DNA from: Hydractinia symbiolongicarpus
Lineage: Eukaryota > Cnidaria > Hydrozoa > Anthoathecata > Hydractiniidae
DNA length: 64,000 nucleotides
Assembly: GCF_029227915.1 (NCBI RefSeq)
Contig: NC_079883.1
Coordinates: forward strand, 25,790,001 to 25,854,000
Direction of reading: 5' to 3'
In this document: piece by piece, positions 7,153 through 48,459 of the stretch
How the letters are laid out: each line of letters opens with the position of its first letter
Position numbering within the stretch: the stretch's first letter is position 1
The notes under the pieces: generated by a model
Databases searched by the model: none
What the model saw: only the letters and a program-made list of their open reading frames with translations
Told to the model about the DNA's origin: nothing
Made by a program: the position numbers and the translations under genes

Positions 7153-7275
7153 TAAAGCTGGAAATACTTCATTCTCTATAATCTCACCTTTGCAACGCTT
7201 GCATACAAACTGTATGCCAGCTCTTAACCTTCCACTAATACTACTGCACTTCTTTTGTACCCAATGCTTGCAAGT

Positions 7276-9691: not shown

Positions 9692-9700
9692 TAAAACAAA

Positions 9701-19055: not shown

Positions 19056-22000
19056 AGTTACGGTATATTACTAAGTATTACAGTGTACTACCAAATACCT
19101 AAACAGTACTGCAAAGTATTACAGTATATTACTAAGTACTACAGTGTATTAATAAATACTACAAGGTATTACAGTATACTACCGAATACTACAAGGTATT
19201 ACAGTGAATTACTGAATGCTACAAAGTATTACAGTGTATTACCGAATACTACAAAATATTACAGTATATTACTAAGTATTACAGTGCATTACTAAATACT
19301 ACAAGGTATTACAGTGTATTATTGAATACTACAAGGTATTACAGTATATTACCCAATACTACAAGGTATTACAGAATATTACCGAATACTACAAAGTATT
19401 ACAGTGTATTACTAAATACTACAAGGTATTACAGTATACTACCGAAAATTACAAGGTATTACAGTGTACTACAAGGTATTACAGTGTATTACCGAATACT
19501 ACAAGGTATTACAGTGTATTACTGAATACTACAAGGTATTACAGTATACTACCGAATATTACAAGGTATTACAGTGTACTACAAGGTATTACAGTATACT
19601 ACCGAATATTACAAGGTATTACAGTGTACTACAAGGTATTACAGTGTATTACTGAATACTACAAAATATTACAGTATATTACTAAGTACTACAGTGTATT
19701 ACTGAATACTACAAGGTATTACAGTGTATTACCGAATACTACAAGGTATTACAGTGTATTACTGAATACTACAAGGTATTACAGTATACTACCGAATATT
19801 ACAAGGTATTACAGTGTACTACAAGGTATTACAGTGTATTACTGAATACTACAAAATATTACAGTGTATTACTGAATACTACAAGGCATTACAGTGTATT
19901 ACTGAATACTACAAGGTATTACAGTGTATTACTGAATACTACAAGGTATTACAGTGTATTACTGAATACTACAAGGCATTACAGTGTATTACTGAATACT
20001 ACAAGGTATTACAGTGTATTACTGAATACTACAAGGTATTACAGTGTATTACTGAATACTACAAGGCATTACAGTGTATTACTGAATACTACAAGGTATT
20101 ACAGTGTATTACTGAATACTACAAGGTATTACAGTGTATTACTGAATACTACAAGGTATTACAGTATACTACCGAATATTACAAGGTATTACAGTGTACT
20201 ACAAGGTATTACAGTATACTACCGAATATTACAAGGTATTACAGTGTACTACAAGGTATTACAGTGTATTACTGAATACTACAAAATATTACAGTATATT
20301 ACCGAATACTACAAGGTATTACAGTGTATTACTGAATACTACAAGGTATTACAGTGTATTACCGAATACTACAAGGTATTGCAGTGTATTACTGAATACT
20401 ACAAGGTATTACAGTGTATTACTGAATACTACAAGGTATTACAGTGTATTACTGAATACTACAAAGTATTACAGTGTATTACTGAATACTACAAGGTATT
20501 ACAGTGTATTACTAAATACTACAAGGTATTACAGTATACTACCGAATATTACAAGGTATTACAGTGTACTACAAGGTATTACAGTGTATTACCGAATACT
20601 ACAAGGTATTACAGTGTATTACTGAATACTACAAGGTATTACAGTGTATTACCGAATACTACAAAGTATTACAGTGTATTACTAAATACTACAAGGTATT
20701 ACAGTATACTACCAAATACTACAAGGTATTACAGTGTACTACAAGGTATTACAGTGTATTACCGAATACTACAAGGTATTACAGTGTATTACTGAATACT
20801 ACAAGGTATTACAGTATACTACCGAATATTACAAGGTATTACAGTGTACTACAAGGTATTACAGTATACTACCGAATATTACAAGGTATTACAGTGTACT
20901 ACAAGGTATTACAGTGTATTACTGAATACTACAAAATATTACAGTATATTACTAAGTACTACAGTGTATTACTGAATACTACAAGGTATTACAGTGTATT
21001 ACTGAATACTACAAGGTATTACAGTATACTACCGAATATTACAAGGTATTACAGTGTACTACAAGGTATTACAGTATACTACCGAATATTACAAGGTATT
21101 ACAGTGTACTACAAGGTATTACAGTGTATTACTGAATACTACAAAATATTACAGTGTATTACTGAATACTACAAGGCATTACAGTGTATTACTGAATACT
21201 ACAAGGTATTACAGTGTATTACTGAATACTACAAGGTATTACAGTGTATTACTGAATACTACAAGGCATTACAGTATATTACCGAATACTACAAGGTATT
21301 ACAGTGTATTACTGAATACTACAAAGTATTACAGTGTATTACTGAATACTACAAGGTATTACAGTGTATTACTAAATACTACAAGGTATTACAGTATACT
21401 ACCGAATATTACAAGGTATTACAGTGTACTACAAGGTATTACAGTGTATTACCGAATACTACAAGGTATTACAGTGTATTACAGTGTACTACAAGGTATT
21501 ACAGTGTATTACCGAATACTACAAGGTATTACAGTGTATTACTGAATACTACAAGGTATTACAGTATACTACCGAATATTACAAGGTATTACAGTGTACT
21601 ACAAGGTATTACAGTATACTACCGAATATTACAAGGTATTACAGTGTACTACAAGGTATTACAGTGTATTACTGAATACTACAAAATATTACAGTATATT
21701 ACTAAGTACTACAGTGTATTACTGAATACTACAAGGTATTACAGTGTATTACCGAATATTACAAGGCATTACAGTATATTACCGAATACTACAATGTATT
21801 ACAGTGTATTACTGAATACTACAAAGTATTACAGTGTATTACTGAATACTACAAGGTATTACAGTATACTACCGAATATTACAAGGTATTACAGTGTACT
21901 ACAAGGTATTACAGTGTATTACCGAATACTACAAGGTATTACAGTGTATTACTGAATACTACAAGGTATTACAGTGTATTACCGAATACTACAAAGTATT

Positions 22001-25000
22001 ACAGTGTATTACTAAATACTACAAGGTATTACAGTATACTACCGAATATTACAAGGTATTACAGTGTACTACAAGGTATTACAGTGTATTACCGAATACT
22101 ACAAGGTATTACAGTGTATTACTGAATACTACAAGGTATTACAGTATACTACCGAATATTACAAGGTATTACAGTGTACTACAAGGTATTACAGTATACT
22201 ACCAAATATTACAAGGTATTACAGTGTACTACAAGGTATTACAGTGTATTACTGAATACTACAAAATATTACAGTGTATTACTGAATACTACAAGGCATT
22301 ACAGTGTATTACTGAATACTACAAGGTATTACAGTGTATTACTGAATACTACAAGGTATTACAGTGTATTACTGAATACTACAAGGCATTACAGTATATT
22401 ACCGAATACTACAAGGTATTACAGTGTATTACTGAATACTACAAAGTATTACAGTGTATTACTGAATACTACAAGGTATTACAGTGTATTACTAAATAAT
22501 ACAAGGTATTACAGTATACTACCGAATATTACAAGGTATTACAGTGTACTACAAGGTATTACAGTGTATTACCGAATACTACAAGGTATTACAGTGTATT
22601 ACAGTGTACTACAAGGTATTACAGTGTATTACCGAATACTACAAGGTATTACAGTGTATTACTGAATACTACAAGGTATTACAGTATACTACCGAATATT
22701 ACAAGGTATTACAGTGTACTACAAGGTATTACAGTATACTACCGAATATTACAAGGTATTACAGTGTACTACAAGGTATTACAGTGTATTACTGAATACT
22801 ACAAAATATTACAGTATATTACTAAGTACTACAGTGTATTACTGAATACTACAAGGTATTACAGTGTATTACCGAATATTACAAGGCATTACAGTATATT
22901 ACCGAATACTACAAGGTATTACAGTGTATTACTGAATACTACAAAGAATTACAGTGTATTACTGAATACTACAAGGTATTACAGTATACTACCGAATATT
23001 ACAAGGTATTACAGTGTACTACAAGGTATTACAGTGTATTACCGAATACTACAAGGTATTACAGTGTATTACTGAATACTACAAGGTATTACAGTGTATT
23101 ACCGAATACTACAAAGTATTACAGTGTATTACTAAATACTACAAGGTATTACAGTATACTACCGAATATTACAAGGTATTACAGTGTACTACAAGGTATT
23201 ACAGTGTATTACCGAATACTACAAGGTATTACAGTGTATTACTGAATACTACAAGGTATTACAGTATACTACCGAATATTACAAGGTATTACAGTGTACT
23301 ACAAGGTATTACAGTATACTACCAAATATTACAAGGTATTACAGTGTACTACAAGGTATTACAGTGTATTACTGAATACTACAAAATATTACAGTATATT
23401 ACTAAGTACTACAGTGTATTACTGAATACTACAAGGTATTACAGTGTATTACTGAATACTACAAGGTATTACAGTATACTACCGAATATTACAAGGTATT
23501 ACAGTGTACTACAAGGTATTACAGTATACTACCGAATATTACAAGGTATTACAGTGTACTACAAGGTATTACAGTGTATTACTGAATACTACAAAATATT
23601 ACAGTGTATTACTGAATACTACAAGGCATTACAGTGTATTACTAAATACTACAAGGTATTACAGTGTATTACTGAATACTACAAGGTATTACAGTGTATT
23701 ACTGAATACTACAAGGCATTACAGTATATTACCGAATACTACAAGGTATTACAGTGTATTACTGAATACTACAAAGTATTACAGTGTATTACTGAATACT
23801 ACAAGGTATTACAGTGTATTACTAAATACTACAAGGTATTACAGTATACTACCGAATATTACAAGGTATTACAGTGTACTACAAGGTATTACAGTGTATT
23901 ACCGAATACTACAAGGTATTACAGTGTATTACAGTGTACTACAAGGTATTACAGTGTATTACCGAATACTACAAGGTATTACAGTGTATTACTGAATACT
24001 ACAAGGTATTACAGTATACTACCGAATATTACAAGGTATTACAGTGTACTACAAGGTATTACAGTATACTACCGAATATTACAAGGTATTACAGTGTACT
24101 ACAAGGTATTACAGTGTATTACTGAATACTACAAAATATTACAGTATATTACTAAGTACTACAGTGTATTACTGAATACTACAAGGTATTACAGTGTATT
24201 ACCGAATATTACAAGGCATTACAGTATATTACCGAATACTACAAGGTATTACAGTGTATTACTGAATACTACAAAGTATTACAGTGTATTACTGAATACT
24301 ACAAGGTATTACAGTATACTACCGAATATTACAAGGTATTACAGTGTACTACAAGGTATTACAGTGTATTACCGAATACTACAAGGTATTACAGTGTATT
24401 ACTGAATACTACAAGGTATTACAGTGTATTACCGAATACTACAAAGTATTACAGTGTATTACTAAATACTACAAGGTATTACAGTATACTACCGAATATT
24501 ACAAGGTATTACAGTGTACTACAAGGTATTACAGTGTATTACCGAATACTACAAGGTATTACAGTGTATTACTGAATACTACAAGGTATTACAGTATACT
24601 ACCGAATATTACAAGGTATTACAGTGTACTACAAGGTATTACAGTATACTACCAAATATTACAAGGTATTACAGTGTACTACAAGGTATTACAGTGTATT
24701 ACTGAATACTACAAAATATTACAGTATATTACTAAGTACTACAGTGTATTACTGAATACTACAAGGTATTACAGTGTATTACTGAATACTACAAGGTATT
24801 ACAGTATACTACCGAATATTACAAGGTATTACAGTGTACTACAAGGTATTACAGTATACTACCGAATATTACAAGGTATTACAGTGTACTACAAGGTATT
24901 ACAGTGTATTACTGAATACTACAAAATATTACAGTGTATTACTGAATACTACAAGGCATTACAGTGTATTACTAAATACTACAAGGTATTACAGTGTATT

Positions 25001-26848
25001 ACTGAATACTACAAGGTATTACAGTGTATTACTGAATACTACAAGGCATTACAGTATATTACCGAATACTACAAGGTATTACAGTGTATTACTGAATACT
25101 ACAAAGTATTACAGTGTATTACTGAATACTACAAGGTATTACAGTGTATTACTAAATACTACAAGGTATTACAGTATACTACCGAATATTACAAGGTATT
25201 ACAGTGTACTACAAGGTATTACAGTGTATTACCGAATACTACAAGGTATTACAGTGTATTACAGTGTACTACAAGGTATTACAGTGTATTACCGAATACT
25301 ACAAGGTATTACAGTGTATTACTGAATACTACAAGGTATTACAGTATACTACCGAATATTACAAGGTATTACAGTGTACTACAAGGTATTACAGTATACT
25401 ACCGAATATTACAAGGTATTACAGTGTACTACAAGGTATTACAGTGTATTACTGAATACTACAAAATATTACAGTATATTACTAAGTACTACAGTGTATT
25501 ACTGAATACTACAAGGTATTACAGTGTATTACCGAATATTACAAGGCATTACAGTATATTACCGAATACTACAAGGTATTACAGTGTATTACTGAATACT
25601 ACAAAGTATTACAGTGTATTACTGAATACTACAAGGTATTACAGTATACTACCGAATATTACAAGGTATTACAGTGTACTACAAGGTATTACAGTGTATT
25701 ACCGAATACTACAAGGTATTACAGTGTATTACTGAATACTACAAGGTATTACAGTGTATTACCGAATACTACAAAGTATTACAGTGTATTACTAAATACT
25801 ACAAGGTATTACAGTATACTACCGAATATTACAAGGTATTACAGTGTACTACAAGGTATTACAGTGTATTACCGAATACTACAAGGTATTACAGTGTATT
25901 ACTGAATACTACAAGGTATTATAGTATACTACCGAATATTACAAGGTATTACAGTGTACTACAAGGTATTACAGTGTATTACTGAATACTACAAAATATT
26001 ACAGTATATTACTAAGTACTACAGTGTATTACTGAATACTACAAGGTATTACAGTGTATTACCGAATATTACAAGGCATTACAGTATATTACCGAATACT
26101 ACAAGGTATTACAGTGTATTACTGAATACTACAAAGTATTACAGTGTATTACTGAATACTACAAGGTATTACAGTATACTACCGAATATTACAAGGTATT
26201 ACAGTGTACTACAAGGTATTACAGTGTATTACCGAATACTACAAGGTATTACAGTGTATTACAGTGTACTACAAGGTATTACAGTGTATTACCGAATACT
26301 ACAAGGTATTACAGTGTATTACTGAATACTACAAGGTATTACAGTATACTACCGAATATTACAAGGTATTACAGTGTACTACAAGGTATTACAGTATACT
26401 ACCGAATATTACAAGGTATTACAGTGTACTACAAGGTATTACAGTGTATTACTGAATACTACAAAATATTACAGTATATTACTAAGTACTACAGTGTATT
26501 ACTGAATACTACAAGGTATTACAGTGTATTACCGAATATTACAAGGCATTACAGTATATTACCGAATACTACAAGGTATTACAGTGTATTACTGAATACT
26601 ACAAGGTATTACAGTGTATTACTGAATACTACAAGGTATTACAGTGTATTACTGAATACTACAAGGTATTACAGTGTATTACTGAATACTACAAGGTATT
26701 ACAGTGTATTAATAAATACTACAAAATATTACAGTATATTACTAAGTACTACAGTGTATTACTGAATACTACAAGGCATTACAGTGTATTACCGAATACT
26801 ACAAGGTATTACAGTATATTACCGAATACTACAAAGTAATACAGTGTA
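19055..26848. repeat. 7.7-kb satellite of 10-bp units with 1.33-kb higher-order repeats
   Basis: From 19111 to 26840 the sequence is a run of decamers, all in the same register, of consensus ACHRDRTAYT. Main variants are ACAAGGTATT, ACAGTGTATT, ACTGAATACT, ACCGAATACT, ACAGTATACT and ACAGTGTACT. The most common order is a 30-bp trimer. The junction of units gives TAYTAC every 10 bp. A larger pattern repeats at 20564, 21894, 23014, 24344 and 25674, that is 1330, 1120, 1330 and 1330 bp apart, with near-identical copies. The first 50 bp (19055-19110) are diverged and off register by one base. Long open frames here, up to 463 codons, start at GTG and are artefacts of the repeat. Confidence 0.98.
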
Positions 26849-26884
26849 AAATACGGGATATTACTATGTACTACACTGTATTAC
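26836..26884. repeat. inverted repeat closing the satellite
   Basis: Left arm GTAATACAGTGTA (26836-26848) and right arm TACACTGTATTAC (26872-26884) are perfect reverse complements with a 23-base loop. The right arm is a satellite unit in reversed orientation, so the array ends in an inverted piece of itself. Confidence 0.9.
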
Positions 26885-26889
26885 TGTAT

Positions 26890-27877
26890 ATTACAAAGAT
26901 ATTATGCTAGGCAGTAGTATGTATAGTAGGCAGTATTATGTGTTAACAACATTACGGCGTTGATAAATTGCTTAACGTCGTGTGTCGGATGTCGTTGGAA
27001 GAATACGACAATGTCGGATACGACATATTCACAGACTAAATGGATCCTTCCATGAAGTGCTTCCCCGAATTTTTCAAAACAAACATGATGTAATGTTGTG
27101 TTCACACTGTCGGAACAATTTTACGGCCAGATATCATACAAAATTTTATTATGCGTGCGCAATTGAACTCTCTGCATTGGTGATCTCTGTACACGATCGC
27201 ACTGTGCTGCTTGCTTGTTTCGTCTGCCATCAAAAGTTCTGCATCGTCTTTTTGTAGGTTGCTAGTAAAGCTCTTAGTAATCCTCAGTATTGCTGAGTGT
27301 TGCCTAAATAGTCATAATAAACATAATAATGTTCCTAGCCTAATTTGCTGATGCAAAGACACATAATTTCTAGTTTCACAAAGCAAAATAAATTTTGCAC
27401 GAACAAAGATGACCAAAGCAACTAGCTAAACTCAAAATAATATTGTGTTACTAGAAGTTGTTATTGAGATGATTGCAAAAGAAGATAATGATACTCCTAA
27501 ATAAGAAAGGTCTCCTAATAATTCTATGGCCATGGAAAATCTCCTGTAGTGTAATTTTACTATAATCCTAACAGGGACACAAAAATGCACTGGATACTGA
27601 TATAGAAAATATGCACAATATGCAAATTCCTGTTGATTTTTCCACATGTTAACAATATACCATTATAATCGATAAAACCCATTGGAAAATCCACTCGGGC
27701 AACAAAGAAATAAAGATCCATCATGTGAATTTTAATAATGTCAGCAATGTACTGTTTACTCTTTATCTGTATTATGTAGAGTTTAACACTCTGTTAAATA
27801 ATGTATAGGATTGCGCAGTTTTGATCAATTGTTAAAAAGATATCAGTGTTTAAAAATTTTAAGCAAAGCCCCACCAA
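26890..27877. other. gene-free DNA
   Basis: The first 60 bases carry loose GTAGTA-type remnants of the satellite (GGCAGTAGTATG, ATAGTAGGCAGT). Beyond that nothing is supported. A 91-codon frame at 26982-27257 has no recognisable features. Confidence 0.4.
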
Positions 27878-28257
27878 GGCGGACATCACAAATATCTGGT
27901 GTTTTAGAGTCATTTGAGCACCAAAAATAGAGTCGGTCGGTCGGCGAATGATAACTCAAAAATTCGAAAAATTGTATCCAACCATCCAGTCATTAACGCG
28001 CGCCATTAAATCGTCGATATTTTATGATAACTTTGGCACCTGGTTTAAATAGAGTTTCCGCGCACCGTTTTCAACTTGTTCTCAGAACCATTTTTGTATT
28101 TTAAAGCAAAACACAACAATAATGGTAGGTAATGGCTGTGGGGAGACAACAAGCGTGTAATATTTATTTTAGTTTTCCGACTCAGTATATCAAAAATTTC
28201 GATAGAAAATTATTGTCTGTCGGGTGACTCTAACACCAAATATTTGTGACGCCCGCC
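27878..28257. mobile_element. 380-bp MITE with about 35-bp inverted ends
   Basis: The left end (27878-27912) and the reverse complement of the right end (28225-28257) both begin GGCGG and share ATCACAAATAT/GTCACAAATAT, TGGTGTT and AGAGTCA. CAA flanks both ends (27875-27877 and 28258-28260), a possible 3-bp target duplication. No coding capacity. Confidence 0.75.
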
Positions 28258-28260
28258 CAA

Positions 28261-29066
28261 TGTATATACAAATTTTTTTTTTTTAAAAAAAATTGTTTAC
28301 CTGTTGCCTTTATTTTGTCGAACCTGTAATGCTAATCAACAAAAAGGATAGGTTGATGTGTTTTTCTCAAATACTTTAGGGTATGTGAAGATATTTGTTT
28401 TTTGATGACTTCATTGAACCTTCTGTTCCAAAACAGGTGGGTTTTAGGCCTTAAACTTTAAAGTGCAATTGATGTCAGTCTAAATGCATTGATGTTGTGC
28501 TGAAATGTCTAGAAAGTAAAGAAATAAGACATACTTTTTTAGGCTACATCAAAGGAAAATGAATACATTCACCTTGCCTGTTATAAACGCACAGACACAG
28601 TATATTATAATAATACAGTAATTTTGTCTGTGACAGGTTATTGATGACATCATCAAAATATATATCTCCTAAACTATTCACCTGCCTAGCTTAATGTTTT
28701 TCCGTTAGGCCATACTGTACAACTATATTTATTTATTTGTAGACTCACATTGTGTCCTTTATTTATGAAGTAGGCTGTGTACATCCTTAATATGTATTAC
28801 TTTCTAGCAAAATCTCAGCTTATTGTTCTCATAAACTAGGTTTTTATATGTTCTAAACAAGTTGAAAGGGAATATGAATACAAAAGCCATATATTTTTAA
28901 TACCCTTCTTTCACTACTTTTACTTGCCTGAATCAGCTCTCCCATTATTGCTCAATTTATATTTCTATATACTTGGTTGGATGATTAGTATTGTCTGCAT
29001 GATTTCTTAAAAGCTTTGGTATATTTCTCATGATTTATCTGTTGCTTTGAAGGAAAAGCAAATAGA
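28261..29066. other. upstream region of MESD
   Basis: AT-rich DNA before the MESD start codon. No TATA box or other promoter element can be singled out. Confidence 0.35.
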
Positions 29067-32238: not shown

Positions 32239-35200
32239 TTAATGCATCGTACTGCGAACCAAGGCTAAAAATTCTTCGCGTGTTTTGGGATCGTCTCTGA
32301 ATGTGCCAAACATACAACTGGTGACAGTCAAAGCGCCAGGTTTTTGCACACCACGCATTACCATGCACATATGACTGAAAAGAGAGGACGTAGCGACGAA
32401 TCAGTCTTACAGGACATGTCCATCAAGTAAAATCAGTATAATACAAAACATACGCTCGAAAACCTTTCGTGTAACATGTAACATAACATTCGCGACAATA
32501 TAATTTTTGATTTAAAAAACGACTTAGTTTAAAACAAAGAGTTGATATCACTGCTTACCAGGCCTCCACAACTACGCCCACGCCACTAGGTTCTATTGCT
32601 TCGTTCACTGCTAAAGCTATTTGCTTCGTAAGTCGTTCTTGTACTACGAAAGAAGTACTACAAATTATTTAAGTCATTGATTTAAATTCACATTTAAGAA
32701 ACCCGCTTCCCAGCATCATCTTACCAATTTTAGAATTTTCCAAATCGACCCAAATTTAGACCTAAACCAACCCTGCTAAAAGCAAGATGCATTTCGCCGC
32801 GTACGGAACTTGCCACATCGATCTTTAAAGACAATAGTTGGCACCAAACACACAAACGATATTTTATAAATATATAAAATATATAATCAAATTTACCTTG
32901 AAGTCTCCTACTAAACATTTCTACGATCCTAAAAAAATCGAAAGAACAAATATAACTCGCAATCGCAATCGTTACGAACGCAAAAAGAGAGAAAAAACAA
33001 ACAAAGTATGATAAATTGGTTTTACCTTCCAAGCTTACTAAGTCCAACAACTTTTTTATTTGGAAGGTAACCTACGTGGGCCTAAAAATTATAAAAACAA
33101 AGTCTTATTAAGTTAAAATTAAGCCAAAAAAACGATTGTCTTCCACGTGCGAATATTGCGTTAAAAAAGCCTGAAAGTAATTTTTCTTTATATTCGATTG
33201 GCGTATAGGGGCCTGGAAATTAACTTAACCACGTCTCAGTCTCAAATAAAAACTGAAAAATCAATCACGTTGTTTTCAGCACTAACCGGTATCCTTCTGT
33301 ATTTAAAAAGACAGCAATCCTATTATAGAAAATCTTTAGTGGAAAAGAGCTAAAATTTTAACGGACTGATGATAATTTCGTAAGTGCATTTAGAACCATG
33401 CGTTGTTTACAAATGACACCTCTCAAAACACTCTTCTCCGCAGAAGTAATACCACAGAGTATGGATGTTCAACGTGAACAACAATTGGTGTTGTGAGGTA
33501 CGAAGACAACATACCTTCCCCCAAAATGGAACCAAATGATGCTCACATAAAGAATATAAATCGATATCTTTCACTATAACCAGTTCGTCGTGGTTTTCAT
33601 TGAAAATCGCGCCATTTATCACCTCTACAACGTAGAAAAGAGTTTTGAAATTCAACAATATACAGTTTAAAGGTAAAGGAGAGTTTTTACAACCACAGTA
33701 CGTAATCTGCAGGGCATGTCTCCTATTTCGATGTAATGGACCCAACTGCTGGAACGTCTTATTTTCAAGGAATGATTCGCCTTTATCCGGCATTGAATAC
33801 AGAAGTAAAATGATTCTTAAAAAACAAATGAATTTGAAATTCAAAGAATATATCAAACAAAAAACAAGAATATTGGAATGAAGATTAAAAAAATGAGGAA
33901 ATTAGGCTATATAAAGTTTTTCGGGTCAAAAAAGTTTCTGGAATCAAAGTTTCGGATAATTAAAATTTAAAAAATTAATTTTTCTGAAAATAAAATAAAG
34001 GTACCTGATAACTTTTGTGTGTACCCCTTGGTAAAAAACATCATCGCTTTAGCGAATCGCTCAGGTGTGTCTAACAGGCCCTCGCGGTTTGGATCTTCCC
34101 CAACATTTTCTAATATCGTTCTAACGCTGGAAGATATCTTGTTGATGCGATCGTCAAACTCGTTCGAGTCATCTTCGCGTTGTTTTTTATCCATCTCTGT
34201 AAAAAGTAAAAAAAAATATATTAGTATTTAACAGTCATAAAAAATTAATAAAAAATAAATAAATAAATAAATAAATAAACAAATAAATAAATAAATACGT
34301 GACATAATAAGTCACATGAGCAACGAACAAATAATAAAACTTGTATTTTAAGACGACATATTCTATATATTATATGGTGAAACCGCATTGGAAATTTTCA
34401 CAAAAAACATATCCTCCATATACCTATGTATCAATAACGGTTTTTTCTTCAGTAAAAACCAAATCGTAAAATATTCTCATATCGAAATCAAAAAAAATGT
34501 TAGGCTCATTGTATCTACAATTGTAACAACAAAATTCCGTTGATTGATTTGCGCACTTGGGAATATTAAAATTTTTTACCACCTACACATTTTCCTCCCA
34601 TTCTCCGCCCTACTAATATTTACAATGGAATTATTTTTAATGTCAGATAAAATAAATTAGAATTTTTTATTCGAGTGCAACTTTAACGCAGCTCCCTTTG
34701 AGGAATTTCTGTGAGTTTATATAAAAACGCTTTAAGCAATTTACCTGTTCTTCATTTAATCTACATTTAACCTTATTCTACCGTGCTTGTTCTAGCTTGT
34801 ATGTAAATTTCCAGTATACCATTCTTTTCAGATACACGCATATGACATAGGATGTAAGAAAACAATAGCTATTTTAAAACGTCTCACAGGATGGCCATTC
34901 AAATTTAATTACAATTCCAGTATATTTCATTACCTTTTCAAGTTTTTTTTTTGCAGGTATCATAATGATTGGAATTGGAATTGGAATATAATATATTCTA
35001 CACGACCATCTCGAAGTAAAACATCGCCATGAGAAGAAGTTTCATTATTTACATGTTACAGGCTGCTAATTTATGTTATTACTGTATTTGATATTGCAAA
35101 CCCGAAAAACTGTAGCTTTTGCAAAATAATCTGGCACTGTTACATTATAAAATGCAAAGCGAGACTACTAAAAGATAACAAGATATTATTTTGAGAATGC

Positions 35201-36300: not shown

Positions 36301-36704
36301 CAAATTTCTCTGATTTTTCAGAAGTTTTAGCAAATTTCTCTGATTTTTTAGAAGTTTCAGCAAATTTCTCTGATTTTTTAGAAGTTTTAGCAAATTTCTC
36401 TGATTTTTTAGAAGTTTCAGCAAATTTATCTGATTTTTTAGAAGTTTCAGCAAATTTCTCTGATTTTTTAGAAGTTTTAGCAAATTTCTCTGATTTTTTA
36501 GAAGTTTCAGCAAATTTCTCTGATTTTTTAGAAGTTTCAGCAAATTTCTCTGATTTTTCAGAAGTTTCAGCAAATTTCTCTGATTTTTCAGAAGTTTCAG
36601 CAAATTTCTCTGATTTTTCAGAAGTTTCAGTAAATTTCTCTGATTTTTCAGAAGTTTCAGCAAATTTCTCTGATTTTTCAGAAGTTTCAGCAAATTTCTC
36701 TGAT
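36301..36704. repeat. 30-bp minisatellite, 13.5 units
   Basis: Each 30-bp unit is CAAATTTCTCTGATTTTTYA followed by GAAGTTTYAG. Units in the left half mostly have TTA and those in the right half TCA at the variable site, which suggests block expansion. As 30 is divisible by 3, both strands remain open (a plus frame of 202 codons and a minus frame of 159 codons), each a 10-residue repeat. Neither has other signs of being a gene. Confidence 0.97.
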
Positions 36705-38018
36705 CTTTATGTGAATATCCTGATTTCCTGATGTAACAAACACTATGTTTAACGTTGTTTTTGATTTCTGAATATTTTTATTTATTTTGATTTTAATTTT
36801 ATCACGGAGCTTAGTGTGACGAATGCTCAAATATTTTAAAGTAAGGTGGATTTTGACATAATTTTGCCTCCATTTTTTTCCACTTCAAAACTAAACACAG
36901 TGTAAAAAAACACAAACTAAGAATAAAACATTTGTTTATTTACAAAAAGATATGGAAAACTAATCTAAACCGGTTGCATAATAAAAAAATTAATTATATA
37001 TATAATTTATAATTATGTATTAATTTATAGTTTCAACAAATTTAAAAAGTTGAACAAAACAAGGCCTAAACTTACAATCTGTAGAGGTACTTACACGTCA
37101 CACTATTGTTATTTTGTAGATGTATATATTTCTTCTTTGTGTTTATAGACACAACAACATTCTTATAATAAAAACGCCGAAGAATAATAAACAGCTTTTA
37201 TGTTGTTTTGTATCTTAAACTCGGGGACCTAGAAATAGTTGGGTACTACCAACCAATGCTAGCAGATCCACCATTGTTTGCAAAGCCATCAGTCACACTG
37301 TCATTGTCACCTTCTGCTACTCTGACACCTACCACAGTGCCTGCTCAGACAACATGTTAGCAGACGCATCTGCAAAAGGCCATTAAGCCATAGAAAATTC
37401 ATCTTTTTGTTAGAATGCCACACACACAGATGTGTTAAATGCTTAAATGATAAAAAAATTGCGAATACATAAGGCTTGCCATAGTTTTAAAATATATCTA
37501 GAGACGGTTGCATTCAATTACAGTAAATCTTCTATCAATCATTTTCACGGGGCTTTTTAGGAAGATTTTATCATGCATGCAGCAAAAAGAACACGTCATG
37601 TGTTTTAGGTGTGCTTTCAGGTATGCTACATTGGTCAACTGCTTATAAGATTTAGGATTTTGCATGTACTAATAATGGCACACATTAATCAAATTGTGGT
37701 TGTGTGTGTGCTATTGTATGCCTCTCTAGTTAATATTCACTTGCTATAAATGTCAGAAAAAACTTCATAACACTGACACAAAATATTCTCTAAAAATTTG
37801 AGGTCCTTTGCTGCATGGTCATGATATATTATTTTTGTTCTCAGGTGAAATAACACAAAAGGCGGGTAAGTTGGACTGAAAAGAAATCATGTCTTACCAA
37901 AACCAGTGTACATATGAACATAATGAGAAAATCAAATTTCCTTGACATAAGGAAAACATCAATATTTCCCATTTAAGACAGATGACTGGTATAAACATAA
38001 ATTAAAAAGGACGCCAGG
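36705..38018. other. gene-free DNA
   Basis: AT-rich, with simple TATATA tracts near 36990-37015. No gene supported. Confidence 0.4.
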
Positions 38019-38369
38019 TAACACCAGTCTGAGAGATAGAAAGAGTTCAGATGAGCTATAACCAGGCTAAGTATCCGTAGAACTAAAGATGTTATCCAGA
38101 TAAGAAGATTGAATTGACTGGGGCACTTGGAAAGAATGGAGGGGTATAATTGGGTAAGAAAGTGTAGAGACTTGATAGTTCCTGGGGCAAAGCCCAGAGG
38201 TACACCGAGAAATACTTGGCAGGAGGTTATAAGGACGGACTTGATACAGAGGAAGTTGAGTTTAGATCTAACACAGTCTAGATCAGATTGGAAGAGGGTC
38301 ATTAATATACCCCGTCCAACCCATGCTAGCATGGAAAACAGACGTTAACCCGAGAATGATGATGATGAA
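38019..38369 (+). mobile_element. 5'-truncated 3' end of the 6.5-kb LINE family
   Basis: The translated segment ERMEGYNWVRKCRDLIVPG and the nearby GAKPRG, TWQEVIRTDL and THASMENRR match the C-terminus at 6523-7152. The nucleotide match ends in ACCCGAGAATGATGATGATGA, the same tail type. Strong 5' truncation is usual for LINE copies. Confidence 0.92.
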
Positions 38370-39239
38370 TGGACCAGTGTAAGTATGTTTCAGGAGCAAT
38401 TCCAATTCGTCTCATAATACAGAATTGACATATTACAATATTGCCACGTATATCAATCACAGCACTAGACAATATTTTAGACGATTCGTTTTTGGGTGGG
38501 TTGGTTATCAAGTTTGACAATTCCTCTGTGGTGAATTGACTTTTAAAGAATCATCAAGAAAATATGAAAATCCAAAATTCAGTAAATTTGAGTAGGGGAA
38601 TGATCTTGATCAGAGTATGTACTGTACCTCAATCTGCAAAATATTTCAATTGAGGGACATAATTTTTCCTCATTGGGGGACATGTGTGCCATTCGGGAGA
38701 CAATCAGTTTTCATCAGTCCCATGTAAGCATTTTTTATTAGGTCAAACTCTACAGAATTAATGGGGCTAAATGAATATTTAGCTCATTTTAATTGTGGTG
38801 ACTTCAGTAAACCTTGTAGCTGGCCTGTAGAATGATAGGTACCACTCTGGCTCTGGCCTAATAATGTACCTCAAATAAGGTCAAATAATAAAGCACTTTT
38901 GATCCTGTAAACAGTTAGCCATGTTAGATTGTATCTGCTTAGAGTATTGTCTCAGTTGCCCCATGTCAACATGCCTTGCTTTGCAATGCTTAATGAAACA
39001 AGTCAATAAATACGGATACATGAGTCAGTCTAATTTTAGCCATAAAGAACTGAGGTTGTTGGAGACTAAAGATTTTAAGCTATTGATCAAAGGGATATTG
39101 ACAGCAACGACATGCCACCTAAAAATAGTTAAGTAGGAATGTCTCCGGTAGGTCTAAGATTAAGCACTTTGCCCCTTGGTCCCTAGCATGGAGCAATTAA
39201 CTACGTTGCCTCCTTTATTTTTATCCGTATCTTGCCACA
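38370..39239. other. gene-free DNA
   Basis: No gene or defined repeat supported. Confidence 0.35.
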
Positions 39240-40188
39240 CAGCTGGTCACCTATCAAACTCTAGTTACCCAGTTTGCTAACCAATATGTCTTTTCCGCTG
39301 TGTGTTCCTTTGACAAACTGCATAGACTGCAGTTAGCTAATGACTGCTTGCACCGATAGGACCAACTTGACGTTTTGCTCGTTACCCAACACTTAAGAGG
39401 GGCTCCCTTATTACATAAGTCGTAATCGTCTCCCACCCTGCATCACTACATACTACATATGCATGTTTCAATTGTGGCCAGCGAGGACATTTTGCCACCA
39501 ATTGCACTAGGTTTCCCAGTATGAGACTCTGGGCCACAACTAGGTGGTTGTGGCCCAGAGTCTCAGAGTGCTTTCCAGTATCTTTCAGACAGCTGCTTCC
39601 AGTACGTCAGATTTCCCAGGGTTTGCTGGCAGTTCAATAAAGACATGGCCTGCTCCAATAGACGCCTCTTTCCACACGTGTTCCCATTGTTCAAAAAACC
39701 ACCCAGCACACCGTTGCTCATTTAGGCCCTCTCAGCAAAGTGCCCAATAATTTTTTTCCTATTTATTTCTTTGTATCCACTCCTGTATAATGTTGCAGTG
39801 TTAGGCAAATCAACAGTTTCACACCCCAATCAGGTTCTATCAGGCTTCACCTATAGGTTTAAACTTGGGTACCAAAATGGACAGCTTTTAACGTCAACGA
39901 CTAACAACAATTTTATGGAACATTTAGGCAAAGTTAATAAGGCTATTTTAAAGAATTAAATAGAGGACACACAGTTGGCCCCTTCAATTACCCTCCTCTT
40001 CCTTTTTCATTGCTCCCTATTGGGTGCAGCTCCTAAAAAACATGGTACCATCCGGGTAATTTTGGACCTCTCATTACCACAAATTTTTTCAGCTCACAAT
40101 GGTATTTTAGGCAGGTGGTCTAACAACTGTTATCGCAGATATAATCCATCTTTAAATTTAAGTGGTGTTCAAAATGGCCAACCTCAAT
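39240..40188 (+). mobile_element. DIRS-like retrotransposon fragment (gag region and RT start)
   Basis: Two zinc-knuckle-like motifs occur: CFNCGQRGHFATNC at 39464-39505 and CSHCSKNHPAHRC at 39679-39717. Further on, FTYRFKLGYQNG (near 39850) and GAAPKKHGTIRVILDLSLP (40023-40079) resemble the region before and at the start of DIRS-type reverse transcriptases. The parts are in different frames with stops, and the fragment ends where the copia LTR begins at 40189. No tyrosine recombinase is seen. Ty3/gypsy is the alternative, but the PKK-G-R-ILDLS segment fits DIRS better. Confidence 0.5.
39522..39565. repeat. perfect 19-bp hairpin
   Basis: TGAGACTCTGGGCCACAAC (39522-39540) and its exact reverse complement (39547-39565) are separated by TAGGTG. 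TTTCC(C)AGTAT flanks both sides as a direct repeat, so this could be a small fold-back insertion or a template-switch event. Confidence 0.92.
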
Positions 40189-40399
40189 TGTTAAGTAACA
40201 ATAATTTCTTACTTTGATTGTCTCACTTGATCACTCAGCGCTATCACAAACACAACCAGCAAGAACACAACACAACTTGATCTATAACACAACAACACAA
40301 CTGGATATCAATACAACTGCACAACCACTTGAGGTCCCACCAAGAACATTCACTATTGTTTACAGTGTATATTATGGAGACAACAAATTAATATCAACA
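40189..40399 (-). repeat. copia LTR (3' LTR in element orientation)
   Basis: Matches 42871-43078 along its length with scattered substitutions, so the copy is not recent. A purine run GAAGAAGGAGA on the minus strand just outside (about 40401-40411) is the likely polypurine tract. Confidence 0.93.
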
Positions 40400-40792
40400 A
40401 TCTCCTTCTTCAATTAGTGAATGTTGGTGGGAATCTGTGTCTTCTCATTTTTATTAGTCTTTTTCATTTTCCGTAAATCAACTCAATCACATGTACACTA
40501 TTTACAAACTTCTTCACTTTCTCAGCTTACAGCCGAGCCTCTGCGATTGCTTGCAAAAGTCGACTTGACGAAGCTCCATTCTTTGTCATTGGATCTGCCA
40601 TTTGGTCTTTTGTTGTTATCCAACTAAGTTTTGAAATTTCTTTCTTTTCTATCATTTCTTTCAAGATGGCAATGTAGGTCTAATTCTTCTGTCCAAAATA
40701 CCTTTACCAGAATATGCAGCATCTACCAAAGACTTGCAATCTGTATAACATTTCATTGCAATCTGGAGTCCTTCGCTATCAAAGACAACATC

Positions 40793-41575
40793 TCAAATAA
40801 TACTCGATAACCAATATGACGATTTTGTCTGAGTAGCTACCCAATTTAATTGACCAATTAATTGCCTCATCTTTGTCTTTTCCTCATCACTTAAACCGTC
40901 TGATTTGGACAATAATCTCTTTTTAGGTAGGTATTGGATAGTATTTACATATGATATCTGATCTAACATTATCTCGTTATCTTTACAACTGAGGTTTATT
41001 CCAAGGCATTTAAATGCAACTGATTTTTCTACACCAACTTGAAAGATTTTTCTTATCTCTTCAACAACCTCTCTCTCAAAATATTCGCTCCCTCTCCAAC
41101 AAAAATCATCAACATGTGTAGAAATAATACCTGCTAGTTTACAATTGTGGTGCCAATAAAACAAACCAGGGTCATATTTACATACTTTAACATTCAATTT
41201 GGTAAGTTCTTCATAAACCTTAAGATACCAAGTCCTTGAAGCATCGTTTAATCCATAAACACATGTCGTTAATTTCCATACTGTTCCATCTTTGTAGGCT
41301 TCCTTGGGTGGACGTATATATAATTCTCTGTCAATAGGGTTTCCTTGAAGAAATGCTGCTTTAATGTCGATGGAATGGCATGTCCAATTCATGACAGACA
41401 TAATAGCAAACATAATCCTAAGTGACTCTTTACAGCAGGTCGGAGAATCTACTTGTACATCTGCTTTATCTTCAAATCCTCTTGCTACTAACCTTGCTTT
41501 AAATTTGACCAAACCAGACTGGTCACATTTCTTGGTAATCACCCATCTTGTTGATATCAATGATTGCTTAGACAC
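40793..41575 (-). pseudogene. copia reverse transcriptase, 3' truncated
   Basis: Hallmarks in order: STRWVITKK, FKARLVARGFEDK, IDIKAAFLQGN (motif A), CVYGLNDASRTWY (motif B) and THVDDFCW (catalytic DD). It is followed by LIGQLNWVATQT and a stop; fragments of RNase H and the element end are readable in other frames down to about 40500. An N-terminal part lies upstream to about 41660 in a shifted frame. Confidence 0.92.
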
Positions 41576-41664
41576 TGGAACCTCTTTATAAACATTTTTT
41601 TTGATCCAATTTTCCAGGTCATTCGTTTTTGCTTGCTTAATTAATTCAGTTTCTGTGCTGTCAA

Positions 41665-42869
41665 CTAACAGTATCTCTTCACTATTTGATGGACTTCTTC
41701 ATTTATTCCTTCTATTTTTGATATTCCCTTTTTCATATCAATACATTCTGTAGAGCCATCTTTATGGCGAACATTCCAAAAATCTTTATATTTTCCTCCC
41801 TGAGCCTTCCCAACTTTTCCAGCTCTTGAAATTACTTCAACTTCTTTTAATTGCAAATCTTCATTTGTTGCAATGCGTATTTTCATCTTTGGTTTTAACT
41901 TAACAACATCATTTTCAACATCATCATTTTTATTGTTAGCATTGACATTCCGCTGTTCACTTACATCTTTATTGTGTTCCACATTTTCTAATTTGCTTAC
42001 TTCATCAATAGGATTTATACTATCAAAGTCATCATCATTTCTCCCCATTTCTTCTTCTTCAATAGTATCTTCAGTATCTTCAAAGTATACATTGTACTCT
42101 TCTAGTGTAACAGCATCTACATCAACCTCATCATTTTCACTGTATACATCATCATCTTCTAGTACAAGATGTTTCATAAACTGTTCTGTGTTTGTTTCAG
42201 GTTTTGATGTGTCATCAGAAGCTATTCTCTCTTGAGCTTTCACATGCTTTAAATTACATGGATGCACACGATTGTATCGACTTCCATGTTCTACCAAAAC
42301 TTGCTGACTTTTAAAACTTATAACTGTACCTGGGCCATGCCAATGTTTGTTGTCTTTTATCCGTCTTTTATCGTCATTCATGTATTTCACATTTCCAGAA
42401 AGTCTAGTTTGATGTCTCAAAACTCGCTGTATCTTTTCTGATGACTTGTTTTCGATATATGCTTGTCTTGCTGCATGCATAGCATTTAAATTTTTCGCTA
42501 CTACTTGACTAGCAGTCTTAATTTTCATTGCAGGTGGCTTATTTGTCAATATGCATGGTATATTGGGGTTCTTGCCAAAAAGTAATTGGTTTGGACTGTA
42601 GCCATTGTAATTCGCAAATAAGTTCTTTGCACTAATTGACCAACTTAAAGCCACTTCTAACTCACGGTTTTGATCATTCATAATTTTTCGAACAGTTTCT
42701 CCAATGATAGCCTTTCAACTATTCCGTTACTCCATGGACTCTCTGCAGCAGTGGTTACAACCCTAATGTTAAATTTTTCACAGAAATCAATGAATTCACT
42801 GTTATCGAAATCCCCTCCATTGTCAACCATGAACTCTCCTGCACAGAACTTTCCACCCTCTGCTACCAT
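41665..42869 (-). pseudogene. copia integrase remnant and acidic linker
   Basis: The frame at 42869-42678 starts within the primer site and carries VDNGGDFDNSEFIDF (second catalytic Asp) and ESPWSNGIVER (catalytic Glu); the zinc-binding segment and first Asp are deleted. After a one-base shift near 42680 the frame 42681-41665 continues with NGYSPNQLLFGKNP, the integrase C-terminal side, then a strongly acidic linker (EDDDVYSENDEVDVD and similar) before the reverse transcriptase. Confidence 0.9.
42857..42868 (-). promoter_or_regulatory. copia primer-binding site for initiator tRNA-Met
   Basis: The minus-strand sequence TGGTAGCAGAGG is exactly complementary to the 3' end of animal initiator tRNA-Met (CCUCUGCUACCA). 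It lies two bases inside the LTR, as expected for the site that primes minus-strand DNA synthesis. Confidence 0.9.
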
Positions 42870-42870
42870 T

Positions 42871-43078
42871 TGTTAAGTAACAATAATGACTTACTTTGAT
42901 TGTCTCACTTGATTACTCAGCGGTATCACAAACACAACCAGCAGGAACACAACACAACTTGATCCGTAACACAACACAACTGGATATCAACACAACTGCA
43001 CAGCCACTTGAGGCCACACTAAGAACATTCACTATTGTTTACATTCTATATTTTGGAGACAACATATTAATATCAACA
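42871..43078 (-). repeat. copia LTR (5' LTR in element orientation)
   Basis: Direct copy of 40189-40399. The primer-binding site follows two bases inside it. Confidence 0.93.
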
Positions 43079-43391
43079 TCCATGACGTGCCCAAGCTCTG
43101 GGACATTTAGTTCAATAAATCTAAAGAGTGATCTGTGTTATTTACTGTAGTTATAATTGATAGACTAGGTCCTGTGGTTACGTACACAATGTGGGTCGGA
43201 ATATGGATTTTATATATGTCAAATATTTTGACCTTGTGTTTATTTTGGTTATGGTCTGTTATTTGCTTTCCATAGCTATCATAAATTAGTTTGTATGTGT
43301 CTCTACGCTTCTTTGTATGTATGTATATTTTTGCTGACACACATAAGCCAGTACTCTTAATGACTGACTTTTTCCTACAAATTACCCCACT

Positions 43392-43470
43392 AGTTTGGGG
43401 GAAATTTGGGGATGTCAGGCTTCTTACGTCAGCCATAAAAATTTGGACAGATGCATGTGTGAGGCTTGTG
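43392..43470 (+). repeat. single end of the 1920-2247 MITE family
   Basis: Shares AGTTTGGGGGAAATTTGGG, GGATGTCAGGCTTC, CGTCAGCCA and GATGCATGTGTG with the left end at 1920-1985. No partner end was found nearby. Confidence 0.65.
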
Positions 43471-44784
43471 TATCTTATTATTACTTGATATTATTATCAC
43501 TTATATCATCATTAAGGCGAGACTTTTATGAATTCCATGCTTGTGTGTGTCATGATTATTTGATAACACATGTTTATTGAGTGCAGAAAGGCACCATATG
43601 TAATTATATGATTACAGTGAAGTGAAGGTGTACCTTCATGATTGAAGAGGAAGAGAAATAAATATTCTTCTTGCATGACAATAAATTAAATAAGTAAGTA
43701 ATCAATAAAGTAAATAATTAATGAAGTTAATAAGTAGTAGTAATAAATATATGAATGTATTAGTAGTGTAATGTACCTCATGAATGAAGGAAATAAGAAT
43801 GTAGATCATGCATAAAGAGATTTGGGTCATGCCTTGAAAACCATTCACAATAATGATCCATGAGGACATTAATATTGTGAAGGGCAACCATAATGTGCAT
43901 ACTCTGGGGTAATTACCCTCTTTGCCTTATGCAAGCATTTTGGTGTGATTACCTTGTTATGATTATTGGCAGCATGTGTTATCTGTCCTGCCTACTTCGA
44001 TCATTGTATAACCAGGCATCCCGATCCATTCCCCCAATTTACAAATTGCGTTCCATGCGAATGATGTTGTATGCAAATTTGTGTGTGTTTTTAATGAGTC
44101 ACCAAGACAATTACCAAACCACCCTTCAAAACAAAAATTTCACTGTAAAAAGGAACTTATTGTGTTTAGATTTCTTGATGCAACTGGTCAAGAAAAAACA
44201 TTTGTGGCTAATACTAAGGCTAAGTAGAGTCTACATGTCTATGGGTTAATTTCTTTGATCATCTTTTTGTGATACAATATTTAATTCTATATTCTGTGTT
44301 TTGAGGGATGTTGCATACTGCCCTTAGGAATCACCAACAAAATGTATTTGTCCCCCTTCACAGCCTTTTGTTAAAAAGAGGCAAGGGAGTTTTATTGGAC
44401 AAGAAAAAGGAATTTTGGGGGCAGATAGAGGATGTGTAAACCTACGTAACTATACTTTCAGGTCAGCGCCCATACTTAAGTTGCCATAAGGAGCATCAGT
44501 TTGACATTTTTGTGTGGAGTTTTAAGTTTGATGTCTCTTCTATTGCAATTTGACTTTTAAGAATTGGTTAAAGCTATTCTTATGCTTTCTTCTTTTGGTT
44601 ACAAATTTCATCTCTATTGTGAAATTTTGTTGTTGTTTAAAGACCACTTTAGCAGCACAAAACATATTTACAAGTCAGTAAATACATTTGCTTAATCAGC
44701 TATACAGGGTTATTTTTTTAAAAATCAATATTACAATGATTCATTATTTTTATCATTGTACCTCTGATTTTGTATGTCTTAGTT

Positions 44785-44812
44785 AGCTAGACATACTTCC
44801 GTATGTCTAGCT
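44785..44812. repeat. 12-bp perfect hairpin
   Basis: AGCTAGACATAC and GTATGTCTAGCT flank a TTCC loop. Confidence 0.9.
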
Positions 44813-46110
44813 CACAAAAGACCGGCAATAAAGAGGTACAGTACTGTGAAAAGGTTTGTTAACATCACATGTTAAGCACGAACCGTATGAATTCTTTTGT
44901 GTCTGTACTTTCAGAACCGTAAAACTATATGTTTTGCAGTTGTAACACATTGACGTTTTTGGTGCATGTGGGCTTGTGAGAAAGCAACCACGATACACCT
45001 TTTCACAGTTGAGTAAAAATACCCTTATTTTATCCAACTCAAGCTATCTGTACAACTAGTTGCACCGTGCTAATCATCTTAAAGCCAATTTAGAAGAGAT
45101 AACTTCAATATTAAAACTGAAAATGACCTTTTCTTTTTACCAAAAATACCCACTGCTGTGGGCTGGCAAATGTGCTTCTTGTTGTTTTCTTCAGTTTTCT
45201 TATAGCTGAGCGGCATTGTCTTTTGAAACCACTACTTTGTGTATTACCACAAATAACTGTGAAAACGTGTCATTATTCTGTGTCAAAGTTGTGTGACCTT
45301 TATTTTGGATCTTCCACAAAGTTGCTTTAAATAATATTCGATTGATTATTGATTGACTGAAAGATGGAGAGAGAATATAATTGCTAGCCTTGCTACAACC
45401 AAAAAGGGACACAATTTTTTTGGTTCTACCTAGCTAGCTAGCTAGCTAGATAAAATTTTCAAAGTCAGTAATTTTTTATATAATCCAAGTAAACACAGTC
45501 AGTGTAAAAGTTATTATAAATTGCTAAGTAACCATATAAACTGCTTTATCAAACTACATGGTTATCTGGATTAGCTGGGTGAATATGTAAGAGATTTCTC
45601 CGTAGTTAGTTTAAACAGAAAGAAGCTTATACTAATCACTCTCTCTATCTAGCTACAGTACTTGGTAGTACAGTACACAGAGATCTACTATATTATTTCG
45701 CCACTAGCTAGAGCTATTACTTACTGTATTAATGTAACTCAAATTATTCTCTCTTGTTTTCTATTTATCTGGAAGTTTTCCTCCATTTCACTGCTAGGTT
45801 TTAAACTTTGTTTACATCTTGATGCTAGACTAAGTACACTGATATTCAGTTACAATACAGCAAAAAAACAATAAAGCTATGTGGTTCTTAACCTTCCTGT
45901 ACATATCTAAGGACTGTACGGCTGCATGCGGGGTTTGGTAAGTCGTCCACGTATTACTTCCTGAATATGAAGGAGATATAGTATTCAACATGCGTTAGAC
46001 CTATGTACGTTCCCAAGCCTTGTGGAGATAATGAATTCCTATTCTCCATGATGCACGTTGTAGTGAGGCTCATGAGTGTCTGTTGTCGAATGTAGCAAGC
46101 CCTTTCTTTC

Positions 46111-46690
46111 CCTGTAGTACAATGTAGTAAAGCGTAATTTTTTGTAGCGATGTGTAGCAGTACGTTATTTTCAGTAGCAGGCCGTAGTAGAGCGTATTTC
46201 TTTGTAGTAGAGTGTAGTAGCTTATAGTAGAGCGTAGTAGCCTGTAGTAGAGCGTAGTAGAATGTATTTCTCTGTAGTAAAAGCGTATTTCTCTGTAGTA
46301 GAGCGTATTTCTCTGTAGTAAAGCGTATTTCTCTGTAGTAGAGTGGTAGTAGAGTGTAGTAGCCTGTAGTAGAGTGTAGTAGAGCGAACTTCTCTGTAGT
46401 AGAGCGTATTTCTCTGTAGTAGAGTGTAGTAGCTTGTAGTAGAGTGTAGTAGAGCGTATTTCACTGTAGTAGAACGTATTTCTCTGTAGTAGAGTGTAGT
46501 AGCGTGTAGTAGCCTGTAGTAGAGCTTATTTCTCTGTAGTAAAGCGTATTTCTCTGTAGTAGAGTGTAGTAGCTTGTAGTAGAGTGAAGTAGCCTGTAGT
46601 AGAGCGTATTACTCTATAATAGAGCGTAGTACGCTGAAGTAGAGCGTAGTAGCCTGTAGTAGAGTGTGGTACGGCGTACTTTTCTAGTGC
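46111..46690 (+). repeat. left-arm decamer array, about 58 units
   Basis: GTAGTA or GTATTT recurs every 10 bp, for example GTAGTAGAGC, GTATTTCTCT, GTAGTAGAGT and GTAGTAGCCT. The register slips by one base only near 46281 and 46345. Confidence 0.93.
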
Positions 46691-46949
46691 TGCGCAACAT
46701 AGGCATCCACATTTAGAATGTGACTAAAAAGCCAATTACAATTCATCACTATACAAACTCTATTTACAAGAAAAATAATTATTCACAGAGCACTATAGTT
46801 AAGAAACGCAGGGGCTTACAGCAGTTAAGCTTCATACAAATAGTTTCAAAAAATATTCTAACTTTTCAGTTAAAGTGAACTGGGGAAAACGGCGTTCAAA
46901 TGACTACCATCCCCATAATGGTCTCGCACTATATACAAACGAAAATTAT

Positions 46950-47745
46950 CGGGACATTTTCCCACAAAGAGATTCTTATCAGTACATCAATTGTAGTTGG
47001 TAGATAAACAAGGCATGATGGCCGATTCGCCAGTGGTCATCATAATATCATAGACAAAGAAACAAATTTAGCAGACACGCCTAAATATTCATTTTCACTT
47101 TCACATATTGTGTTTTACTGCGCTTACCCAACGAGACATGATCCGTTTGTTTGAGCCTTACAGAATACATTACAAGCAATGTATGTCCTAAATACCATGA
47201 GTGTTCACTATTACGCTTTTATTTATACATCAATAGTCAATTCCTCACAAGTTACTTTGGGGATATTAATTTTGCTCTTGATTGTCGAATGTCTAGTTGT
47301 GGTTTTTAGGGAAGAACAGTTGAAATTTCATTACTTTTAAGCTGGATCTCGAACAATCGGTTTGTAATGTCATCCATACTTCATACTTTTCAGGTGCACA
47401 ATTCGCTACTATAATTGCCCTACAGTGCATTTGCAAAAAACTACAACAGACTTCATGAAAAAAGTAAATGAAGCTCAATGTCGTGTTTATGTCCATACGC
47501 AATGCATGATAGCCGTACATTGTGTGAAACGAAACTAAATTTGGATATGTTTACATCCAACAAAGAGCTTTTGATCAGTAAATCAAGTGTAGTTGGTAGA
47601 TAAACAAGGCATAAAGGGCGATTTGCCAGTGTTCATCATAATATCACATACAAAGAAGCAAATTTAGGAGACCGCGTCAATATTCCTTTTCAATTTCACA
47701 GCTTGTGTTCTTCTCCGCTCATTCAACAAGTTCGAAATACCCTGT
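46950..47745. repeat. internal direct repeat pair of the transposon
   Basis: Copies at about 46950-47165 and 47546-47745, 596 bp apart, share GTAGTTGGTAGATAAACAAG, CATCATAATATCA and CAAAGAA. They are about 80 percent alike by eye. Confidence 0.8.
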
Positions 47746-47862
47746 CAGGCTGGTCTTGCAATGCTCAATGAACAAATACAACTGGTAAACGAGACGGAAG
47801 ACAACCCATTTATCCCAGATGCCGAGGAAATGATTGATGCGGCTCCCTTAGAGACGATCGTA

Positions 47863-48040
47863 GACTACTACAGAGAAATACGCTCTATTATGCTCTACTA
47901 CAGGCTACTACACTCTACTACATGCTACTACAGGGTACTACGCTCTACTACAAAGAAATGCGTTCTACTGCGGCCTGTTACAAAAAATAACGTATTGCTA
48001 CACATCGCTACAAAAATTACGCTTTACTACGTTGTACTAT
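47863..48040 (-). repeat. right-arm decamer array, about 18 units
   Basis: On the plus strand CTACTACA recurs every 10 bp (CTACTACAGG, CTACTACACT, CTACTACATG), the reverse complement of the left array. It is about a third of the left array's length. Confidence 0.92.
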
Positions 48041-48459
48041 AAGGAAAGAAAGGTCTTGCTACACTCGACAACAGACATTGATGAGCCTCACTACAGTGTG
48101 CTACATGAAAATACGCTCCATGGTACACTGTTGTTCAGAGTCTAGGCTATTGTGTGCTAAAGTGGGGCTTATGGAGAATAGGAATTCATTATCTCCACAA
48201 GGCTTGGGAACGTACATAGGTCTAACGCATGTTGAATACGTTGTCTCCTTCATATTCAGGAAGTAATACGTGGACGACTTACCGGTTTTGGTATTTTTGT
48301 GGTTTGTTTGTTGTTGTTCCAAGGGCTCTTTTCACTTCACCATCCTAGTATCAAAAATTGTAACAGAGCCCTGGGGAGGAGATTGAACAAAGTGAAATTT
48401 TTGGACTATTTTTAAACTTCCTCCTAGATAATAAGGTTAAGAGTATTAGTTAAATTTTG

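Follow-up and report, generated by a model that had tools for sequence, protein, structure and literature searches.

Short arrays carried by DNA transposons are an accepted source of satellite DNA, and the transposon ends that once bounded such arrays may decay over time (review PMC12628747). In Drosophila virilis, the 220-bp arm repeats of the foldback-like transposon Tetris form kilobase-long arrays known as TIR-220 (PMC4079207). In Galileo, a Drosophila element of the P superfamily, the THAP domain of the transposase binds sites within the long arms; the Galileo paper gives arm-site binding as untested for Foldback and Phantom (PMC3688188). Tetris and the Mutator/Foldback family Tm1 of root-knot nematodes were both placed in the Mutator superfamily by their authors (PMC4079207, PMC3169594). 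The present work concerns a 64,000-bp stretch of the Hydractinia symbiolongicarpus genome (contig NC_079883.1, positions 25,790,001 to 25,854,000), hereafter the window, which carries a satellite of 10-bp units between 19.1 and 26.9 kb and a foldback-like transposon at 45.9 kb with decamer arrays in its arms. A preliminary description of this DNA had proposed that the satellite and the arms are built on one TAYTAC core, that both are arrays of sites for one DNA-binding protein, and that the satellite may be an amplified transposon arm. We lean towards a plainer reading, in which an ordinary non-autonomous foldback-like transposon lies near a separate satellite and the shared core is mostly a coincidence between short-period AT-rich arrays.

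The window contains 797 copies of TAYTAC and 69 of GTARTA. Chains were defined as at least four cores at multiples of 10 bp, with up to three consecutive units missing. By this rule, the satellite forms a chain of 743 members (19117-26832) with a four-member tail in another phase (26859-26894), and the transposon contributes two minus-strand chains (46184-46279 with 7 members and 46346-46661 with 22) and one plus-strand chain (47866-47951, 7 members). The window has no further TAYTAC or GTARTA chain beyond the satellite and both transposon arms. Tandem Repeats Finder calls the satellite (start at 19075 or 19116, end at 26904), the left arm (46182-46672) and the right arm (47865-47952). The pattern of three cores in a row has 700 matches in the window and none in 100 shuffles, and the decamer arrays are therefore not a product of chance.

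The satellite extends over ~7.7 kb. Its main block (19117-26836, plus strand) comprises 772 decamers in a single 10-bp phase, of which 743 begin with TAYTAC (270 with TACTAC and 473 with TATTAC); the preliminary description of the array as TAYTACNNNN on the plus strand was thus accurate. Column by column, the first six positions read T in 750 units, A in 771, T or C in 500 and 271, T in 772, A in 771 and C in 768, and the remaining four vary inside fixed sets. Of the 772 units, 758 fall into 15 decamer types. Satellite-type decamers include TATTACAGTG, which is the commonest, TATTACTGAA and TACTACAAGG. Autocorrelation peaks at 30, 1330, 60, 2450, 2660 and 110 bp. The 1330-bp higher-order copies are 99-100% identical across long stretches, and 10 of 1160 site groups are variable when copies are aligned at lags of 1330, 1120 and 2450 with the junctions trimmed. 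The satellite is a young higher-order array, and an unbroken phase would be expected of one that grew in whole units over a short time.

Both edges of the satellite are degenerate. The left edge (19066-19116, plus strand) differs in phase from the main block, and the right edge (26837-26904, plus strand) holds the four TAYTAC cores in another phase. Directly to the right, GTAGTA-like units run in the opposite direction (26905-26940, minus strand); this signal is weak, with 2.4% of 6892 control windows equalling it, and apart from these units the satellite runs in a single direction. A coding role for the satellite was considered and rejected: open frames of up to 479 amino acids stem from the repeat unit, and none spans the whole block. 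We note that an 87-bp tandem repeat of eight copies (75% matches) lies at 17691-18389, ~700 bp upstream of the satellite.

The transposon occupies 45937-48283, ends in GGTAAGTCGTCC and contains no recognisable transposase. Its outer inverted repeats (45937-46049 on the plus strand and 48171-48283 on the minus strand) differ at 3 of 113 positions. The resulting identity of 97% upholds the earlier view of the arms as inverted copies of each other, and further arm pieces agree at 85-89%. Inside these ends lie tandem arrays of unequal length, ~490 bp in the left arm (46184-46672, minus strand) and ~90 bp in the right (47866-47951, plus strand), and the alignment between them shows a clean 10-bp gap. 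The left array is composed of TACTACANNC and AAATACGCTC types, contains two 1-bp phase shifts and has autocorrelation periods of 20 and 70. The middle of the element includes a direct duplication of 176 bp (46960-47135 and 47556-47730, both plus strand, 83.5% identity). Pfam finds no family at E up to 1 in the six frames of 46690-47860, with one sub-threshold row (E 0.19) from the piece 47668-47900. In structure and size, 45937-48283 corresponds to a non-autonomous foldback-like element.

The flanks of the transposon, GCGGGGTTT and GGTTTTGGT, agree only as the 5-bp GGTTT (45932-45936 and 48284-48288, both plus strand), as judged from one copy of the element. GGTTT is likely, not certain, to be a target-site duplication, because a single 5-bp match at one length has an estimated chance of ~1 in 1000. 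The 8-10 bp duplication of the Mutator superfamily is absent from this element, and we therefore withhold a superfamily assignment. Phage records hold no relatives of the transposon, and viral contigs contain no exact copy of its 25-bp end. DNA hairpins better than those of shuffled sequence were found in none of three stretches, one each of the arm end, the arm array and the satellite. As a separate observation, 11 of 102 aligned sites differ between the two arm arrays (46179-46294 against 47865-47976), compared with 3 of 113 in the outer ends, a roughly fourfold faster divergence.

The core and spacing that the preliminary description had taken as common to the satellite and the arms are so only in part. 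Both arrays have the 10-bp spacing and a TAYTAC-like core. The arms lack TATTAC altogether, however, and the left arm shifts phase. Among 57 arm decamers in register, a set that omits more degenerate decamers nearer the transposon ends, 38 start with TACTAC, none with TATTAC and 12 with AA (the second type, AAATACGCTC), and 19 are without the core. Mean column similarity between satellite and arms is 0.81 in the core and 0.31 in the spacer, the latter being at chance level (22% of 10,000 random spacers reach 0.31). The longest common word is 12 bp, and only two whole decamers, TACTACAGTG and TACTACAAAG, occur in both. Higher-order periods also differ, with 30, 1330, 60 and 110 in the satellite against 20 and 70 in the left arm. 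With up to 3 mismatches allowed, the 24-bp transposon end recurs nowhere else in the window, and loose matches to its first 12 bp number 17 (23 expected), with none between 16683 and 32626. It is because of the short common word, the chance-level spacers, the different periods, the absence of transposon ends near the satellite and the different ends that flank it that we regard the satellite and the transposon as separate.

How readily would two such arrays come to share a core? TAYTAC, in some rotation and on some strand, is present in 2.0% of 100,000 random decamers. Among 20,000 random decamer pairs, some exact 6-mer is common to both members in 5.8%, and in 26.9% if one transition is allowed. 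The larger figures matter because the TAYTAC core was picked after looking. 

Several observations pull against a coincidence, and some of them also bear on the possibility that the satellite expanded from the array of a relative of the 45.9-kb transposon, likewise of foldback type, whose own ends have since diverged or been exchanged and whose decamers have drifted. We judge this origin rather unlikely. The 10-column profiles of satellite and arms reach a similarity of 0.610 at the best of 20 registers, against null means of 0.434; in 10,000 trials each, this value is attained by a fraction of 0.0001 under column permutation and 0.0019 with random letters, so that the agreement in core and spacing exceeds that of random letters. 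We consider the profile match suggestive, not decisive. Base rates in 2.9 million viral contigs, a rough yardstick since the sample is viral and not host, do not dissolve it. A run of five TAYTAC spaced by 10 bp is present in 14 stretches, all short (~40-110 bp); three cores with the letters rearranged give 18, 16 and 10 stretches, and three of the 18 share a single contig. TAYTAC decamer arrays are neither favoured nor rare, and there is therefore no general bias to explain the match away. The common satellite decamers vary in the spacer and at Y, which could reflect an older constraint. Finally, a diverged inverted repeat of ~83 bp lies on either side of the satellite (18544-18626 on the plus strand, 28488-28570 on the minus strand) and speaks for a transposon origin of some kind. 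Its strict alignment scores 50, a value reached in none of 200 shuffles (maximum 46), and the same flanks score only 33 in direct orientation. A weaker second match lies further in and in the same order (18813-18847 with 28400-28434, 80.6%, E 0.39), and the word TGCCTG closely flanks each half on its outer side (18535-18540 and 28575-28580), although a 6-bp match with equal slack arises in 5.5% of 1500 random position pairs. The few inverted GTAGTA-like units at the right edge of the satellite also fit such an origin, as does the Tetris precedent in D. virilis (PMC4079207). Yet the flanking repeat does not end like the GGTAAGTCGTCC of the 45.9-kb transposon, the satellite is otherwise unidirectional, TATTAC is in neither arm, and no more than two whole decamers are common to the arrays. 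Pfam rows from the six frames of 26905-28524 (E 0.098 and 0.16) all stay below threshold. Amplification of an arm of the 45.9-kb kind itself is further opposed by the absence of the 24-bp end elsewhere in the window. A less strict alignment of the flanks also points to the inverted repeat: its score of 838, close to the maximum of 840 (mean 766) in 200 block shuffles, is reached by none of 400 shuffles in a second test. Shared 10-mers alone do not reveal the repeat (5 inverted, 5.2 expected), and a search of the window with up to 3 mismatches gives no third copy of its core. The satellite may therefore lie within an old element of ~10 kb that has ends of its own, or an old dispersed repeat may have left an inverted copy on each side of it; the window contains other inverted pairs about as strong, such as 27686-27733 with 60542-60589.

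A shared protein could also explain the likeness. A host protein or transposase that reads TAYTAC on one helix face might have shaped both arrays in the absence of common descent. This would be consistent with a satellite phase unbroken over 772 units and with the TA.TAC core retained in both arrays while the next four bases vary. An unbroken phase also results from recent whole-unit exchange, however, and the 1-bp shifts of the left arm and the 19 of 57 arm decamers without the core fit poorly with such reading. Recent changes, moreover, do not spare the core. Four of the variable sites among satellite copies fall in the six core columns and six in the four spacer columns (6 and 4 expected if even), a split that leans slightly towards protection on small numbers. 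Rare decamer types, each present once or twice, number 13; the change falls in the core in 10 of them and in the spacer in 3, a count blind to spacer changes that restore a common type. Comparison of the left arm with the right gives 11 differences, at 6 of 62 core sites and 5 of 40 spacer sites, and one of them lies at the alignment edge. None of these three counts, all small, gives a sign of core protection in the satellite or the arms, and we hold convergence on a shared protein to be quite improbable. Hardly less doubtful is a combined version, in which a single protein reads TA(Y)TAC on one helix face to recognise the transposon ends and the satellite, having grown in a related element, now acts as a transposase sink or decoy. 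Very improbable, in our estimate, is that the arrays are unrelated and their 10-bp spacing reflects the bending of DNA or its wrapping around nucleosomes. The array at 36301-36708 (30-bp unit) has a 10-bp sub-period as well, but the A/T-step periodicity of the satellite (0.181) and the arms (0.128-0.143) does not exceed the level seen in random decamer repeats (median 0.19), and nucleosome phasing was rejected on this ground. As far as the sequence goes, a common origin or a common protein may still apply; both would draw on a short motif match chosen post hoc, and a common origin also on the flanking inverted repeat with its different ends.

If the transposon and the satellite are separate, as we favour, each may be accounted for in its own terms. 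Each transposon arm combines a unique end of 113 bp with TACTAC-based decamers arrayed further in. We infer that these arrays most likely offer an unseen transposase additional sites to bind, by which it locates the ends and brings them together, a function shown for a few sites in Galileo. The satellite presumably grew through unequal exchange in whole decamers, perhaps within an older element that has inverted repeats but ends unlike those of the transposon. The near-identical copies observed in it suggest that blocks of up to 1330 bp were then recently copied. On this account the window contributes a foldback-like element and a decamer satellite, neither of them matched to the described systems compared below, and the arrays illustrate how readily short-period repeats come to share a 6-bp core. 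Should the link prove real, the locus would add to the cases in which foldback transposons gave rise to satellites, and its very short unit would make binding easy to test.

The remainder of the window is eukaryotic in look. Among the 10 open frames scanned with Pfam are reverse transcriptases of several retroelements, whose appearance would suit a cnidarian, and the sole match resembling a host gene is a piece of GTP cyclohydrolase I (PF01227, E 1.2e-11) in the frame at 33410-33901. ARAGORN finds no tRNA genes in the window, and Rfam gives no match there at gathering score. Direct repeats at 40185-40399 and 42867-43078 (90.7%) flank a Copia-type reverse transcriptase frame and look like the long terminal repeats of a shortened element. 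The segments 6503-6854 and 38018-38368 form an inverted pair (92.6% over 352 bp), of which the latter is probably a truncated copy because the former lies at the end of a non-LTR (long terminal repeat) retroelement (~6523-9700). The 30-bp tandem array at 36301-36708 (13.6 copies at 96%) has autocorrelation of 0.48 at 10 and 20 and no TAYTAC chain, and constitutes a third decamer-like array. Palindromic stretches, 69-93% identical to their own reverse complement, lie at 58934-59055, 58869-58910, 39522-39565 and 3102-3150. Outside the window, a short array in viral contig L009 (5557-5616) contains TATTACAGTG, probably by chance.

Against the described systems, the locus presents a mixture of likeness and difference. 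Judged by analogy, the seeding of satellites by transposon arms and the binding of transposase to arm repeats both have precedent, and neither is shown here. Transposon-derived satellites in general (PMC12628747) may lose their ends; the inverted repeat that flanks the Hydractinia satellite is diverged and known from a single place. Like the 45.9-kb element, Tetris is foldback-like, has no coding copy in the published account, and has arms made of a flanking domain and tandem repeats. Its repeats are ~220 bp, however, and its satellite is the arm repeat itself, whereas the Hydractinia satellite has a 10-bp unit and agrees with the arms in no more than a short core: with a 12-bp longest word, two common decamers and chance-level spacers, the satellite unit is not the arm repeat of the 45.9-kb transposon. 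Target-site duplications are 8-10 bp in Tetris, and the best fit here is 5 bp (PMC4079207). Galileo resembles the present element in its long foldback-like arms with tandem repeats; it differs in having three binding sites, where here there are dozens of decamers and no known transposase (PMC3688188). Tm1 has mostly 9-bp duplications, asymmetric 7-bp end motifs and a repeat of other length and sequence, but shares with the 45.9-kb transposon its composite arms and a variable number of short tandem repeats, 13-15 bp long in Tm1 (PMC3169594).

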